From the NCBI GenBank assembly GCA_945862145.1, contig CAMAXE010000008.1, positions 62,001 through 126,000 of the forward strand: DNA of 64,000 nt. Reading direction: 5' to 3'. Positions 4,532-61,576 of the stretch are shown one piece after another. The notes beneath the pieces were generated by a model. It did not search any database. It was not told the DNA's origin and worked only from the letters and a program-made list of their open reading frames with translations. Position numbers and translations under genes: made by a program. Every line of letters starts with the position of its first letter. The stretch's first letter is position 1. The DNA is from Klebsiella pneumoniae (GTDB lineage: Bacteria; Pseudomonadota; Gammaproteobacteria; Pseudomonadales; UBA5518).

Positions 4532-5006
4532 GGCTGGTCGCGGGCATGGCCCGCTCGTACCCGGGAACCCGCGCGTCGCCTGCTGTAGGAGCGCGCCATG
4601 CGCGCGATATGGGTGGTGCGCTGGCAGAATCGGCTGGTCGCGGGCATGGCCCGCTCGTACCCGGGAAGGCGCGCGTCGCCTGCTGTAGGAGCGCGCTATG
4701 CGCGCGATATGGGTGGTGCGCTGGCAGAATCGGCTGGTCGCGGGCATGGCCCGCTCCTACTCGGGAGCGCGCGCGTCGTCTGCTGTAGGAGCGCGCCATG
4801 CGCGCGATATGGGTGGTGCGCTGGCAGAATCGGTTGATCGCGGGCATGGCCCGCTCCTACTCGGGAACGCGCGTTGTGTGTTGTAGGAGCGCGCCATGCG
4901 CGCGATATGGGTGGTGCGCTGACAGAATCGGCTGATCGCGGGCATGGCCCGCTCCTACTCGGGAACGCGCGCGTCGTCTGCTGTAGGAGCGCGCCATGCG
5001 CGCGAC
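4532..5006. repeat. REP/REPIN-like array, ~100-bp period, ~4.7 units; each unit holds two hairpins in opposite orientation
   Basis: Units begin GG(C/T)TG(G/A)TCGCGGGCATGGCCCGCTC at 4532, 4632, 4732, 4832, 4930; second hairpin GTAGGAGCGCGCCATGCGCGCG in each unit. Confidence 0.9.
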
Positions 5007-12914: not shown

Positions 12915-13165
12915 CGTAGCGGGCCATGCCCGCGACCAACCCGGATATCGCGCGCATGGCGCGCTCCTACATCGGATGCTGCGCATGCCGCACACGCGCG
13001 TCACGCCGGCTGCCGCGCACGTCCCGCCGTAGGAGCGGGCCATGCCCGCGACCAACCCGGATATCGCGCGCATGGCGCGCTCCTACATCGGATGCGGCGT
13101 ATGCCGCACGCGCGCATCGTGCCGGCTGCCGCGCACGTCCCGCCGTAGGAGCGGGCCATGCCCGC
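12915..13165. repeat. REP/REPIN-like array, ~116-bp period, ~2.2 units
   Basis: CCATGCCCGCGACCAA at 12924, 13040, 13156 (exact 116-bp spacing) with intervening inverted hairpin CGCGCGCATGGCGCGCTCCTAC. Confidence 0.88.
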
Positions 13166-13191
13166 GACCAAACACGCCGTGCCCTCGAAAA

Positions 13192-19473: not shown

Positions 19474-19514
19474 GGGGCTGCGTGGGGTCGCGGGTGAGGC
19501 GTGATCCTGGGCGG

Positions 19515-19860
19515 GGGAATGATCGCGGGCATGGCCCGCTCCTACCTGGGGGGGATCGCGGGTGAGGCGTGATCCTGCTCGGGGGAATGATCGCGGGCAT
19601 GGCCCGCTCCTACCGGGGGAGGGTCGCGGGTGTGGCCCGCTCCTACCTGGGGAATGATCGCGGGCATGGCCCGCTCCTACCTGGGGGGGATCGCGGGCAT
19701 GGCCCGCTCCTACCTGGGGGGGATCGCGGGTGTGGCCCGCTCCTACCTGGGGAGGATCGCGGGTGTGGCCCGCTCCTACCTGGGGAGGATCGCGGGCATG
19801 GCCCGCTCCTACCTGGGGGCGGTGCGCTGGGTGATTGCGTAGGAGCGCGCCATGCGCGCG
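19515..19860. repeat. REP-like tandem array, ~31-34-bp period, eight copies of TCGCGGGYRTGGCCCGCTCCTAC
   Basis: Copies near 19522, 19590, 19623, 19657, 19689, 19723, 19755, 19788; then one opposite-orientation GTAGGAGCGCGCCATGCGCGCGA at ~19838. Confidence 0.9.
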
Positions 19861-56063: not shown

Positions 56064-57212
56064 GTGTTCAAAGACCAGACGGCGATCGTGGGGATCGGCC
56101 AGACCGCCTTTGCCAAGTCCCTGCCCGAGAGCGAGCTAGAGCTCGCCTGCGAGGCCGTGAAGCGGGCGCTCGATGACGCGGGCCTGAAGCCCGGGGATGT
56201 CGATGCCCTGGGGTGCTATACCACCGAACAGACGCCGGATTTCGAACTCGCGCGCAACCTCGGGCTGGGTGAGTTGCGATTTTTCTCGCAGTCGCCCCAC
56301 GGGGGCGGCGCCGCGTGCGGGGCGATCGGACAGGTCGCACTCGCCATCGCGGCCGGTGTTGCGCGCGTTGGCGTGGTGTGGCGCTCTCGCAAACGCAGCG
56401 CGCCGGGAACGCGCATCTGGGCCGGGGTGCAGGAGCGTGTGACGGACCACTGGAAATGGTCACGGCCTTCGGGCCTGTTGCGGCCTGCCGACGAGGTGGC
56501 GATCCTGATGCGCCGCTACATGCACGAGTTCGGCGTCTCGCGCGAGCAACTCGCACACGTCGCCCTCGCGCAGCGCGAGTACGCCCTCCGCAACCCGGTG
56601 GCCTTCATGCGCGAACGCCCCATGACGCACGAGCAGTACATGGACGCGCGGATGATCTCGGATCCGCTGTGCCTGTTCGACAACTGCCTCGAAACCGACG
56701 GCGCCATTGCCGTGGTCATCGTGCGTTCGGAGCACGCGCGTGATCTGCCCCATCCGCCGGCATTCATCCATGCGTTTTCGCAGGGCATGTCGCGCCAGCA
56801 CCAGGTGATGGCCGATTTTCACGGGGCAGACCCCTTGCTCAGTTCCTCCTGTGTCACGGCCGCCAATCTCTGGCGCCAGGCCGACTGTGGCCCGCAGGAC
56901 GTCGATGTCGCCCAGTTCTACGATGCCTTCTCGCCGCTGGTGTTGTTCTCGCTGGAAGCCTACGGATTCTGCCCGCGGGGCACCGCTGCCGATTTCGTTG
57001 CCGGGGGCGGCACCCGGCCTGGCGGTCGCCTGCCGGTCAATACCTCGGGCGGCAGCCTCTCGGAGGTTTATCTGCATGGCATGAATCTGGTCATCGAGGC
57101 GATCCGGCAGATCCGCGGCACCTCGAGTTCACAGGTGGCGGGCGCCGAGTATTCGCTGGTCACCTCCTGTGACGCCACGCCGAACGGCGCGATCCTGCTG
57201 CGGAGAAAATGA
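56064..57212 (+). CDS. thiolase-superfamily (Ltp2-like) protein
   Basis: AIVGIGQTAFAKSLPESELELACEAVKRALDDAGLKPGDVD; FYDAFSPLVLFSLEAYGFC; RLPVNTSGGSLSEVYLHGMN; GTG start. Confidence 0.85.
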   Translation: MFKDQTAIVGIGQTAFAKSLPESELELACEAVKRALDDAGLKPGDVDALGCYTTEQTPDFELARNLGLGELRFFSQSPHGGGAACGAIGQVALAIAAGVARVGVVWRSRKRSAPGTRIWAGVQERVTDHWKWSRPSGLLRPADEVAILMRRYMHEFGVSREQLAHVALAQREYALRNPVAFMRERPMTHEQYMDARMISDPLCLFDNCLETDGAIAVVIVRSEHARDLPHPPAFIHAFSQGMSRQHQVMADFHGADPLLSSSCVTAANLWRQADCGPQDVDVAQFYDAFSPLVLFSLEAYGFCPRGTAADFVAGGGTRPGGRLPVNTSGGSLSEVYLHGMNLVIEAIRQIRGTSSSQVAGAEYSLVTSCDATPNGAILLRRK

Positions 57213-57668
57213 ATGATCGACACCATTCCGCTGCCGGCCACCGACGATCCTCACGACGCGCCGTTCTGGAGCGCTGCGCTGCGCTCAGAGCTCGTCGTGC
57301 AGTCCTGCGAGGGCTGCGCGAGGCTGCGGTTTCCACCGCGCCCGGTGTGTCCGTATTGCCAGTCGACAGCGCACCAGTGGCGCGTGCTCTCGGGGGCTGC
57401 GACGGTGTGGTCCTATGCGAAGCCGAGCTCCCCGCTGCTGCCAGCCTTCGAGGCCCTGACGCCCTACGTGGTGGTGCTGGCGCAGATCGACGAGGACCCC
57501 TCGATCCGGATCATCGGCAACCTGGTCTCGCCTGCGGGCGGTGGCGTCACGGTTGTGGACGATTCTGGTCTCGCGATCGGTGCGCCGCTACGCGTGGCCT
57601 TCAGGCAGTACGCGCCGGATGTTGCGCTGCCATGCTGGACCTTGCTTGGGGACGCTGTGGGTGAGTGA
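57213..57668 (+). CDS. DUF35 (zinc ribbon + OB-fold) protein
   Basis: LVVQSCEGCARLRFPPRPVCPYCQSTAHQWRVLSGAATVWSY. Confidence 0.9.
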   Translation: MIDTIPLPATDDPHDAPFWSAALRSELVVQSCEGCARLRFPPRPVCPYCQSTAHQWRVLSGAATVWSYAKPSSPLLPAFEALTPYVVVLAQIDEDPSIRIIGNLVSPAGGGVTVVDDSGLAIGAPLRVAFRQYAPDVALPCWTLLGDAVGE

Positions 57669-58191
57669 GCTGCCGGAGCTTGTGAGAGGGTGGATCGGCA
57701 AGGCCGTGGTGGTGGTCTGCGATACGGTCACCGTGGAAAAGCAGTCGTGGGTCACGTTCTGTGCCGCCGTCCGCGATGGCAACCCGCTCTACTGGGACGA
57801 GGCCTTTGCGCAGCAGCACACCGGCAGCACCATCGCGCCGCCCGCGATGCTGCCCGGCTGGGCGAGCGCGCCGGAGTGGTACCCCGGCAAGCAGGGTGAT
57901 GGCATCCGGCCCATGGAATTGCATTTCATGATCAAGGAAGCGCTCGATTACCCGAACGGTATCGTCACCAGCGTCGACATCGAATACCACGAACCGGTGC
58001 GCGCGGGAGACTCGGTGCGGGTCGAGCAGATCCTGCGCGAGGTGAGCGAGGAGCGCAGCACCCGTCTCGGGCCCGGACGCAACTGGATCATCGACGTGGT
58101 GTTCCGCCGGCAGGATGGCGTGTTGCTCGGCGTGCAGGCGATGGCGTTCCTCGGCTATCGCAGCGGCGCGGCCGTCAAGGAGCAGCCATGA
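57661..58191 (+). CDS. MaoC/FAS1-like hotdog dehydratase subunit (ChsH2-N-like)
   Basis: FCAAVRDGNPLYWDEAFAQQHTGSTIAPPAMLPGW; overlaps both neighbours. Confidence 0.8.
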   Translation: MSELPELVRGWIGKAVVVVCDTVTVEKQSWVTFCAAVRDGNPLYWDEAFAQQHTGSTIAPPAMLPGWASAPEWYPGKQGDGIRPMELHFMIKEALDYPNGIVTSVDIEYHEPVRAGDSVRVEQILREVSEERSTRLGPGRNWIIDVVFRRQDGVLLGVQAMAFLGYRSGAAVKEQP

Positions 58192-58649
58192 ATCCCGAAC
58201 TCGTCCTGGAGGCGAGACTGCCTGAGCGTCGCATCGAGGTCACCACCAAGTCCGTCATCATGGGTGCCGTTGCAAGCCGCGACTGGCAGCCCTTGCACCA
58301 CGACGTGGTCTGGGCGCGATCGCAGGGCAATCTGCCCGACATCATCCTGAACAACTACACGCAGGCAGGCTTGATCAGCTGCTACGTGACGGATTGGTCG
58401 GGGCCCGCGGCCCGTATCGGGCGCCTGCGGTTTTCCATGCGAAGCCCCATTTGCCCGGGCGATGTGCTGGCGATTTCCGGCGTGATTCAGGAGATCGAAC
58501 AGCAGGCCGAACTGATCTGGGTGGTGATTGCCGTGGCGCTTGCGGTGGGCGAGCGCGTCGCGACCACATCCTCCGTGCGCGTGGCCTTGCCAGCCGCAGA
58601 GGAAGCGCCGTCGGTGTGGCAGTGTCCGGCTACCGCATGGCGGCCCTAG
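58188..58649 (+). CDS. MaoC-like hotdog dehydratase subunit (ChsH1-like)
   Basis: SVIMGAVASRDWQPLHHDVVWARSQGNLPDIILNNYTQAGLISCYVTDWSGPAARIGRLRFSMRSPICPGDVL. Confidence 0.85.
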   Translation: MNPELVLEARLPERRIEVTTKSVIMGAVASRDWQPLHHDVVWARSQGNLPDIILNNYTQAGLISCYVTDWSGPAARIGRLRFSMRSPICPGDVLAISGVIQEIEQQAELIWVVIAVALAVGERVATTSSVRVALPAAEEAPSVWQCPATAWRP

Positions 58650-58659
58650 GCGGGCTGGC
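58518..58659 (+). repeat. 142-bp direct repeat, copy 1: 3' end of the MaoC-like gene
   Basis: TGGGTGGTGATTGCCGTGGCGCTTGCGGTGGGCGAGCGCGTCGCGACCAC...CGCATGGCGGCCCTAG; matches 61435..61576 without gaps, about 7 mismatches by eye. Confidence 0.93.
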
Positions 58660-58958
58660 GACTTCGTCGGGATCGCGAAAGCATCGCCGCCACGCCCTGG
58701 CCGGACGCAAATGGAAACCGCGCCGGCATAACGACAACAATTATTCGCAAGGACGCCGCTGATGAGAAAACATTGGGTTGGCATGTGGGCGGCTGTGTCC
58801 GTGGACGACAAGAACCGGGGCATCCCGAAAAGACATGACTTTCGGAAAAAGGCCTTTTATAATTCTTATCCTCAAAAAGAACTCCTGAAAACGAGTAAAA
58901 AAACTCTAGCACCAAGATTGGCGCTAATTAAAAATTTTACTTCAAAAGGTAATACCTG

Positions 58959-61163
58959 ATGCGTTTAACTGCTCTAGCTACAATCTTTACAACAACAATT
59001 TTTCTTATAGGTATTGCTCCTGTTTCGAAGGCTACCGTTATCTCTCAACCACCTTCCGAGGCGGCCAAACAATTGCCCAACATCATCAACATAATTACAG
59101 ATGATACCGGCATTGACCAGTTTTCTATTTTTGGTTACGGTGGAAATCCTGATGAGCAGGCTAAAACCCCCAATCTTGATGCAATCGCCCGCGCTGGAGT
59201 TCGTTTTCGAAACACTTGGTCTCACCCCAGTTGCGGACCGTCCAGATCATCAATTTTAAACGGTCGCTATAATATTCGTACCAATGTGCTATCTGCACCA
59301 ACCCCCCCTGACCTACCTAACTCGCAGACCTCGCCTTACGAATACATGATTCCGAAGCTATTGAAGAAGAAAAACTACGTCAGTGCGGTGATCGGCAAGA
59401 TGCATTTGTCGACTGATTTTAGGGATAAAAACAACTTGCCCTATCTCAATGAAACTATGCGTAAAATGGGCTTTGACTATTTTGAAGGCTATCTTGAGGG
59501 TGGTCCTGCGCCGATTGACACTACAGCAGGAGGCATTGCTCCCAGTGGTACCTATAGCTGTGGATTTGTACCTTCACTGACGGACAATGTAAACACGGGG
59601 GCCAATACTGGTGCCTGTTACAGCGCTAGTGGAGCCTGTAGCAGTATGTCGACAGCAAACTATCGCACTCCAGGGCGAAGTTGCCTTGAGATTGGTGGTA
59701 TCTTCGTTCCCAATGCCAGTTGTGGCACGATGCCAAATACGCTAAATTTTAACACTCAGAATGGTCATTACACTGGTAATTGGGTCATCAACAAGGAAGA
59801 TGGTACAACGATAACCCAACCGCCCAGTAATGAAAAGGCAAGAGGTTTCAAAACCCAGCAAGAAGTCAGCAGGGCTGTTGCCTGGATAAATAACCAAAGT
59901 GATGAAAAGCCTTGGATGCTAAGTCTCGGCATATCAGCTATCCATGAGCCAGTTCAGCAGTCACCGACTGATCTTGTGGCTTCGGATGCAAAACCCACAG
60001 ATGCCTATGACTGTAACGATAAAACTCAAAAGCGAGAGCTTGCTACGCAGATGGTTGAAGCCATTGATCATGAAGTAGGTCGCTTGCTCGTGGAAGCCAA
60101 GTTGGCAACCTACAATAGTGATGGAACGCTAAACTACCAGCCAGAAAAAACCAATACTTATGTGGTATTTACTTCTGACAATGGTACTTGGACGACAAGC
60201 GTACGTTCACCTTTTGATCCCCAAAGAGCAAAGGGTACGCCCTATCAAACAGGAGTATCGGTTCCATTGATAATCGCTGGCCCTGGAGTGAAGTCACCAG
60301 GTCGGCAAGTGAATCATATGGTCAACTTAACTGATCTCTACACTTTTTTTGGAGAAGTCGCTGAAATTGACGTTCGTAAAGCGGTCCCAAAATATCGTCA
60401 ACTGGATTCAAGAAAGTTGATGCCCTACCTCCTCAATCCGAAGCGGAAAGGTCTCCGCACAACCAATTTCACACATCAAGGTAACAATATTCGAGCAAGC
60501 AGTACGGTTTCATATCCTTGTCTGATCGAGGGTCTCCAGCAATGCACTTATGGCATTCCTAGTTTTAAAGGCTGCTTAGATCAAGGTGGTAAATGGTACG
60601 GGCCAGGAGGCGAAGTCACTGCAGAACCTGGTTATTACACCTCCTGTTGTCAAGTGAATCAGTTGACTGGTAAGGATTACCTATCCTCGATTACATCTAC
60701 TGGGATTCGCAATAATAATTACAAGCTCGTCGAGCAAGTCAGCGAGAATTGTCAAAATGGTGTGGCGCTCGATCCGCCGAACGTGAAAAACGAGTTTTAT
60801 CAGATTAATCAAAGTATTAATAATCTGAAGCTTGACACGGCGGACAAGGACTTGCTGCTTGGAGTTCTAACTAGGAATCAGAATCTCCAGTACCAGTCCT
60901 TGAGGGAAAAGCTGGCGCGAATAAAGAATAGTGTCGTGGCCTGTCCCGGGGACGGTAATATGGATAAAGTTGTTAACCAGAAGGATCTCGATGAGTGGGC
61001 TAAATTTGCCGAGACCACCCCCGGCTTTACAACTGGGAATGCTGGAGGAAAGGGAAGTTGGTACGACTTTGGTGGACCTGCCGACTCCAGTCATCCAGAC
61101 GGTGTTACGGATGAGACGGATAAAGCGATCATAGAAGCTAATTTGGGTAAGCGCTGTAAGTGA
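58959..61163 (+). CDS. type I (formylglycine) sulfatase, secreted, with C-terminal dockerin-like EF-hand region
   Basis: IINIITDDTGIDQFSIFGYGGNPDEQAKTPNLDAIARAGVRFRNTWSHPSCGPSRSSILNGRY (CxPSR, Cys codon 59232-59234); signal peptide; C-terminus GDGNMDKVVNQKDLDEWAKF and HPDGVTDETDKAIIEANLG. Confidence 0.9.
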   Translation: MRLTALATIFTTTIFLIGIAPVSKATVISQPPSEAAKQLPNIINIITDDTGIDQFSIFGYGGNPDEQAKTPNLDAIARAGVRFRNTWSHPSCGPSRSSILNGRYNIRTNVLSAPTPPDLPNSQTSPYEYMIPKLLKKKNYVSAVIGKMHLSTDFRDKNNLPYLNETMRKMGFDYFEGYLEGGPAPIDTTAGGIAPSGTYSCGFVPSLTDNVNTGANTGACYSASGACSSMSTANYRTPGRSCLEIGGIFVPNASCGTMPNTLNFNTQNGHYTGNWVINKEDGTTITQPPSNEKARGFKTQQEVSRAVAWINNQSDEKPWMLSLGISAIHEPVQQSPTDLVASDAKPTDAYDCNDKTQKRELATQMVEAIDHEVGRLLVEAKLATYNSDGTLNYQPEKTNTYVVFTSDNGTWTTSVRSPFDPQRAKGTPYQTGVSVPLIIAGPGVKSPGRQVNHMVNLTDLYTFFGEVAEIDVRKAVPKYRQLDSRKLMPYLLNPKRKGLRTTNFTHQGNNIRASSTVSYPCLIEGLQQCTYGIPSFKGCLDQGGKWYGPGGEVTAEPGYYTSCCQVNQLTGKDYLSSITSTGIRNNNYKLVEQVSENCQNGVALDPPNVKNEFYQINQSINNLKLDTADKDLLLGVLTRNQNLQYQSLREKLARIKNSVVACPGDGNMDKVVNQKDLDEWAKFAETTPGFTTGNAGGKGSWYDFGGPADSSHPDGVTDETDKAIIEANLGKRCK

Positions 61164-61238
61164 GAATAATATTTCAAAAAGTTGCGCTCTCAGAAGTGGG
61201 GAAAAAAAGTATCATCCCCGACATTATGCTGATATTGC

Positions 61239-61434
61239 TTGTGCATAATAATTATGTCTTTCCCTGTAGTTGAGGGCTATGAGGCAAGAGCCAAAGAAGT
61301 CGGGTGTAAGAGCGGATTTGTCGTCTGGTTTGCCAATCACCTGCGCGTAAAAGCGGCACGCTTGGTCTACTACGGATTCATTGCCCGGTACACGGATCAT
61401 CTGTTTGTACAAAGTGATGCCATGCTGGAGTGGA
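61239..61434 (+). pseudogene. fragment resembling a GT4-type glycosyltransferase, truncated at the MaoC-tail repeat
   Basis: FPVVEGYEARAKEVGCKSGFVVWFANHLRVKAARLVYYGFIARYTDHLFVQSDAMLEWM; similarity ends where the 142-bp repeat begins. Confidence 0.5.
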
Positions 61435-61576
61435 TGGGTGGTGATTGCCGTGGCGCTTGCGGTGGGCGAGCGCGTCGCGACCACGTCCACCGTGCGCGTA
61501 GCCTTGCCAGTCACAGAGGAAGCGCCGTCGGTGTGGCAGTGTCCGGCTACCGCATGGCGGCCCTAGACGCGCTGGC
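61435..61576 (+). repeat. 142-bp direct repeat, copy 2: orphan MaoC gene 3' end
   Basis: Near-identical to 58518..58659; no upstream MaoC coding sequence present. Confidence 0.93.

Follow-up and report, generated by a model that had tools for sequence, protein, structure and literature searches.

A foreign sulfatase gene bracketed by a 142-bp duplication of an intact MaoC gene's 3' end in an uncultured gammaproteobacterial genus

The stretch of DNA analysed here (64,000 nucleotides, C8:62001-126000 of genome G000, hereafter the window) contains a foreign AT-rich insert that carries one intact sulfatase gene and lies directly behind a gene for a MaoC-like dehydratase. The 3' end of the MaoC gene occurs a second time on the far side of the insert, while the gene itself is whole (Table 1). 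The orthologous site of a congener, G005, has neither the insert nor the second copy. Undirected insertion-duplication is the best explanation that we can offer for this locus, and we hold it with about even confidence.

Table 1. Features of the MaoC-sulfatase locus and of other repeat-bracketed inserts in G000. Positions without a contig prefix are those of the window.
Feature	Position	Strand	Evidence
MaoC-like dehydratase, intact host gene, 153 aa	58188..58649	+	PF01575, E 9e-10
Left repeat copy, MaoC 3' end plus 10 bp	58518..58659	+	Repeat alignment, site patterns
Insert, 2775 bp, absent from the orthologous G005 site	58660..61434		L045 alignment
Short stretch of about 14 bp between left copy and IS91 remnant	58660..58673		No homologue found
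IS91-type remnant, 5'-truncated	58674..58874	+	83% identity to G001 L052/L079
Sulfatase gene, intact, 734 aa	58959..61163	+	PF00884, E 2e-33
Family-4 glycosyltransferase, internal fragment, cut at both ends	61254..61436	+	42% identity to G691
Right repeat copy, orphan MaoC tail joined to native downstream flank	61435..61576	+	Alignment to G005
MFS transporter, native downstream neighbour, 423 aa	61618..62889	-	PF07690, E 5e-27
Case a, 115-bp repeat, 3' end of intact Amdase-like gene	C2:135697-135811/138351-138465		Scan
Case b, 189-bp repeat, upstream region and first codons of intact M48 peptidase gene	C10:15206-15394/16273-16461		Scan
Case c, 96-bp repeat, SnoaL-like gene 5' end	C2:219673-219768/223324-223419		Scan

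The two repeat copies are identical at 135 of 142 positions and align without gaps; the approximately seven mismatches reported in the earlier note are exactly seven. The longest exact run shared by the copies is 53 bp, and when the repeat finder extended the match without gaps it covered 154 bp at 92% identity. Chance would not produce such a repeat: when the surrounding 9-kb region was block-shuffled 200 times, repeated 14-mers averaged 0.36 and never exceeded 5, whereas the real sequence has 77. When the 142-bp sequence was searched against the whole genome (4.38 Mb, 51 contigs), it matched at these two places only, with no third copy or other orphan MaoC tail. A repeat search detected no inverted repeats at the ends of the insert. 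Classical DDE transposons leave a short target duplication of 2-14 bp beside terminal inverted repeats, whereas the repeat here measures 142 bp.

The GC content is 0.45-0.50 between the repeat copies and about 0.65 around them. Codon usage differs in the same direction, with a GC3 of 0.43 in the sulfatase gene compared to 0.81 in the MaoC gene and 0.78 in the downstream MFS gene. The AT-rich character noticed earlier is thus borne out, and the insert is foreign DNA. A single intact gene sits among truncated fragments in this mosaic, which has no machinery of its own: inspection of the open reading frames and a Pfam scan revealed no intact recombinase, integrase or transposase gene inside it, and each of its two ends is a piece of a broken gene and not the terminus of an element.

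The single intact gene (GC 0.46) had been recognised as a sulfatase from its sequence, which the Pfam match supports. Its product is predicted to be an S1 sulfatase, as the translation combines the sulfatase domain with the C-x-P-S-R signature, here in the formylglycine motif C92-G-P-S-R, and its closest relatives among proteins of solved structure belong to the S1 sulfatases. The start of the protein resembles a signal peptide. A second AT-rich sulfatase gene (GC 0.49) lies in a low-GC stretch at G000:C2:168736-170889; it was rejected as the direct source of the window gene, the two proteins being only 54% identical. The glycosyltransferase-like fragment mentioned in the earlier note is also real. 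Its 61 aa are 42% identical to residues 189-253 of the product of G691 L247:820-2259, a 480-aa group-1/family-4 glycosyltransferase with Glyco_trans_1_4 and Glyco_transf_4 domains. Weak matches of this right-hand fragment to C46 and C38 (E 0.57) were dropped, since the peptide has no similarity there. No donor of the insert was found in the order, class and phylum samples, where the closest sequences reached 53-54% identity for the sulfatase and 42-44% for the glycosyltransferase, and neither the genome nor any sample searched contains a further copy of the insert.

The left part of the insert was searched in plasmids and 85k species and matched only in G001, a congener genome from the Lake Erken metagenome. 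The match (L052/L079, contig C531) is 83% over 199 bp, with gaps, and identifies the remnant of an IS91-type element. The remnant holds the last 25 or so codons of the transposase (RRHALAGRKWKPRRHNDNNYSQGRR*) and the characteristic ori-side end (...TTATCCTC). In G001 the same frame continues on its upstream side with CARCGGPVKVIACIEDQGVIDKVLDHL, which is the C-terminus conserved among IS91-type transposases in other copies of the genus, and the related contig also carries a Y2_Tnp (PF04986) gene. The similarity stops at CCTC in both genomes; other copies in the genus end ...TTCCTATACTT. The natural ori end of the truncated element thus faces the sulfatase gene. The body of the Y2/HUH transposase gene and the ter end are gone. 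The statement that no transposase lies inside the insert therefore holds for intact genes and fails for this 5'-truncated piece. IS91 elements generate no direct repeats (PMC5714925), so that the 142-bp duplication bracketing the whole insert is not an IS91 signature. The locus shares with IS91/ISCR rolling-circle elements the remnant at its left edge and differs from them in having a target duplication and no working element.

The empty site that had been sought in relatives was found in G005, the genome in which the orthologous MaoC was detected among five congeners, all of them fragmented metagenome assemblies (93% protein identity). Contig C619 of G005 (L045) is 95.5% identical to window positions 56271-58659 and then continues, with no break, as a 97.9% match to the window from 61435 onwards. 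It contains a single 142-bp copy (L045 2248-2389) in an uninterrupted order of MaoC gene, copy and downstream MFS gene, and the window exceeds it by 2775 bp plus one extra 142-bp copy. This comparison polarises the event as a foreign insertion that duplicated the MaoC 3' end and left the gene intact, as the earlier note had suspected. G005 could, for its part, have lost an insert through recombination between the repeats. Over the 142 bp, the window copies differ from each other at 7 sites and each differs from G005 at 11-12; private differences number 3 in the left copy, 4 in the right copy and 8 in G005, and at 8 sites both window copies agree against G005. The two copies are thus nearer to each other than to the G005 orthologue. 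Being each other's nearest relatives, they place the duplication in the G000 lineage after the split from G005, and the 8 common sites are as expected if it arose there. The earlier note had also proposed recombination between diverged MaoC paralogues. This origin was rejected: the next most similar MaoC in G000 has only 34% protein identity, no third copy exists, and the copies are mutually closest with respect to G005.

Direct repeats of at least 35 bp lying 0.45-12 kb apart were scanned for in 2.06 Mb, or 47%, of G000 only. Between the repeats of case a (C2, L121 15697-18465) lie genes for a fasciclin and a lipoprotein, together with an AbiEii-like fragment and a scrap of IS91, and the orphan tail is 2.5 kb from the intact Amdase-like gene. 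G005 has this tail too, next to the same outer flank and with derived bases in common, so the tail predates the species split. At the same place G005 has other inserts, one of which is bracketed by its own long repeat, and there one orphan tail runs directly into IS91 3' sequence. The site appears as a hot spot, its G005 inserts including AbiE toxin-antitoxin genes, a binding protein and an AT-rich deaminase. Case b (L226) brackets an AT-rich ORF of 182 aa without a Pfam match; in G005 both flanks lie on one contig with no insert and a 105-bp spacer. Of the three sequences, its orphan copy has diverged furthest, with 12 private changes versus 5 and 8. Case c, with copies 3.6 kb apart, was dropped as a further example, as no empty site was demonstrable and the orphan copy adjoins REP-like DNA (GGGGTCAGGTCTTCCATTTTTC). 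Other hits of the scan were an ordinary integrase island (C3:73456-80770), some repeats of 61-577 bp on C9, and cases that were short or in tandem.

Dispersed repeats were observed as well. One of about 131 bp (G000:C2:220817-220948) is present many times over in both G000 and G005, with some further copies in G001. In the window, tandem arrays at 4532-5005, 12918-13171 and 19514-19819, with units of 100, 116 and 66 bp, share a GCGGGCATGGCCCGCTCCTAC-like motif and are seemingly dispersed palindromic repeats of the genome.

The bracketed inserts have no fixed att core: the MaoC repeat is unique, the other inserts use unrelated sequences, and the end points of the repeats vary between loci and, at one locus, between species. 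The varying ends and the position of case b at a 5' end favour a general process over a site-specific integrase, and at some loci IS91 may have helped. It would be tempting to extend this to the whole genus, as one unnamed process, perhaps IS91-driven, through which orphan and often AT-rich genes are repeatedly gained with duplications of about 100-240 bp at gene edges and the gene intact. We consider such an extension unlikely. The recurrence described here comes from the 47% of G000 that was scanned.

Undirected insertion-duplication at the MaoC locus would have begun after the split from G005 with the arrival of a foreign AT-rich fragment comprising the sulfatase gene, the glycosyltransferase piece and the IS91 end. 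The fragment would have been inserted at a break, or at a fork that had stalled, about 10 bp past the MaoC stop codon, and the gene would have remained whole because the break lay past that codon. In the process, 142 bp of target would have been copied to both sides of the fragment, either by fill-in of a widely staggered break or by a template switch restarting upstream, and the two copies would have drifted apart afterwards. General repair enzymes would suffice for this, and a dedicated element would be unnecessary. How the fragment was joined, that this took one step, when it happened and where the fragment came from are what we infer here, whereas the insertion, the duplication, the foreign composition, the mosaic content and the empty site are shown by the data. 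Joining in one step needs no pre-joined donor and fits both the sister relationship of the copies and the scrap-like content of the insert. The G005 empty site, the broken insert ends, the absence of an intact recombinase or transposase gene and the gapless copies unique to the locus speak for insertion-duplication. Against it, 142 bp is long for an end-joining event, the divergence between the copies (4.9%) is high beside that of the flanks from G005 (2-4.5%), and the searches gave no donor.

An insert with a complete MaoC end on one side and a partial one on the other would also result from a Campbell-type single crossover, in which a circular or re-circularised molecule carrying a MaoC tail beside the sulfatase gene recombines once via RecA. 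We regard this as possible though somewhat doubtful. It has a laboratory precedent in E. coli, where a trimmed and re-circularised plasmid gave 56 of 60 unusual integrants with a duplication of the lacZ end; in 14 sequenced integrants these target-end duplications measured 109-950 bp and were attributed to single crossovers of partly degraded plasmids (PMC3240628). Foreign DNA is bracketed by the end of the target gene in both systems, but those plasmids were built with target homology and for the MaoC insert no such donor is known. Along the flanks, G000 and G005 diverge unevenly, with anything from 1 to 20 differences in 200 bp, which makes homologous exchange with diverged strains plausible. 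The private coding changes are nonsynonymous in MaoC in the left copy (3 of 3) and synonymous in the right copy (2 of 2). This contrast is a faint hint that divergence of the right copy took place inside a working gene of another strain, and the changes lean slightly to crossover while being too few to decide. A crossover nevertheless requires a foreign molecule already holding the MaoC tail of this lineage, and none was found in the genome, plasmids or 85k species; as the copies are nearer each other than to G005, the tail would have to come from a very near strain. In addition, 142 bp is short for RecA crossovers.

The IS91 3' end separates the left copy from the foreign DNA, its ori end facing the sulfatase gene, and this suggests another route. 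An element beside the MaoC tail could have read through its ter end and taken the tail along by rolling-circle transposition, the resulting circle or hybrid molecule then recombining back at MaoC. Members of the IS91 family are known to take adjacent DNA with them (PMC5714925), and the orphan tail that runs into IS91 3' sequence at the second G005 locus is in keeping with such capture. This route is improbable, as it requires two separate steps, IS91 makes no direct repeats, the remnant lacks transposase body and ter end, and the other repeat-bracketed inserts show small or no IS91 pieces. The second origin proposed in the earlier note, a cassette duplicating its target's 3' end, fared worse when read as a dedicated cassette or island with the gene end as a long attachment site. 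Placement at, and duplication of, a gene 3' end does resemble island att sites, and other gene ends in G000 are bracketed in a similar way. We nonetheless judge it very improbable: no integrase or other recombinase is present, the insert is bounded by broken genes, the repeats vary in length and end points from locus to locus and, at one locus, between species, one repeat lies at a 5' end, and the ordinary integrase island at C3:73456-80770 looks quite different. An assembly artefact might be suspected in a 51-contig assembly and is the least credible reading of all, given that 7 sites distinguish the copies, that both junctions are internal to a contig of 130 kb and that the alignment of the flanks to G005 holds on either side of the insert.

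The locus falls into a class already known. Many small variable segments of bacterial genomes have been ascribed largely to illegitimate recombination, or to recombination mediated by repeats, and 10-18% of those in E. coli, S. aureus and S. pyogenes are flanked by direct repeats, mostly shorter than 30 bp (PMC2884548). Like them, the MaoC-sulfatase insert is short, strain-specific and without mobility genes, lies between direct repeats (142 bp, 95%) and has an empty site in a relative (L045). It differs in that its repeat is 142 bp long, 5% diverged and derived from the neighbouring gene, and is thus a long-repeat member of these repeat-flanked variable segments. Homology-facilitated illegitimate recombination has been proposed for orphan genes in the type VI immunity arrays of Vibrio (PMC5361080). 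There too, orphan gene parts stand beside newly gained genes; in those arrays, however, the old effector is displaced, whereas here the host gene is intact and its tail duplicated.

With a filled site, an empty site and three-way site patterns, the locus is a clear polarised case of a foreign metabolic gene added behind an unharmed catabolic gene. Should the other bracketed inserts share its origin, a long target duplication could be read as the scar left by undirected gene capture, and the rate of such capture could be measured by counting these scars throughout a genus.
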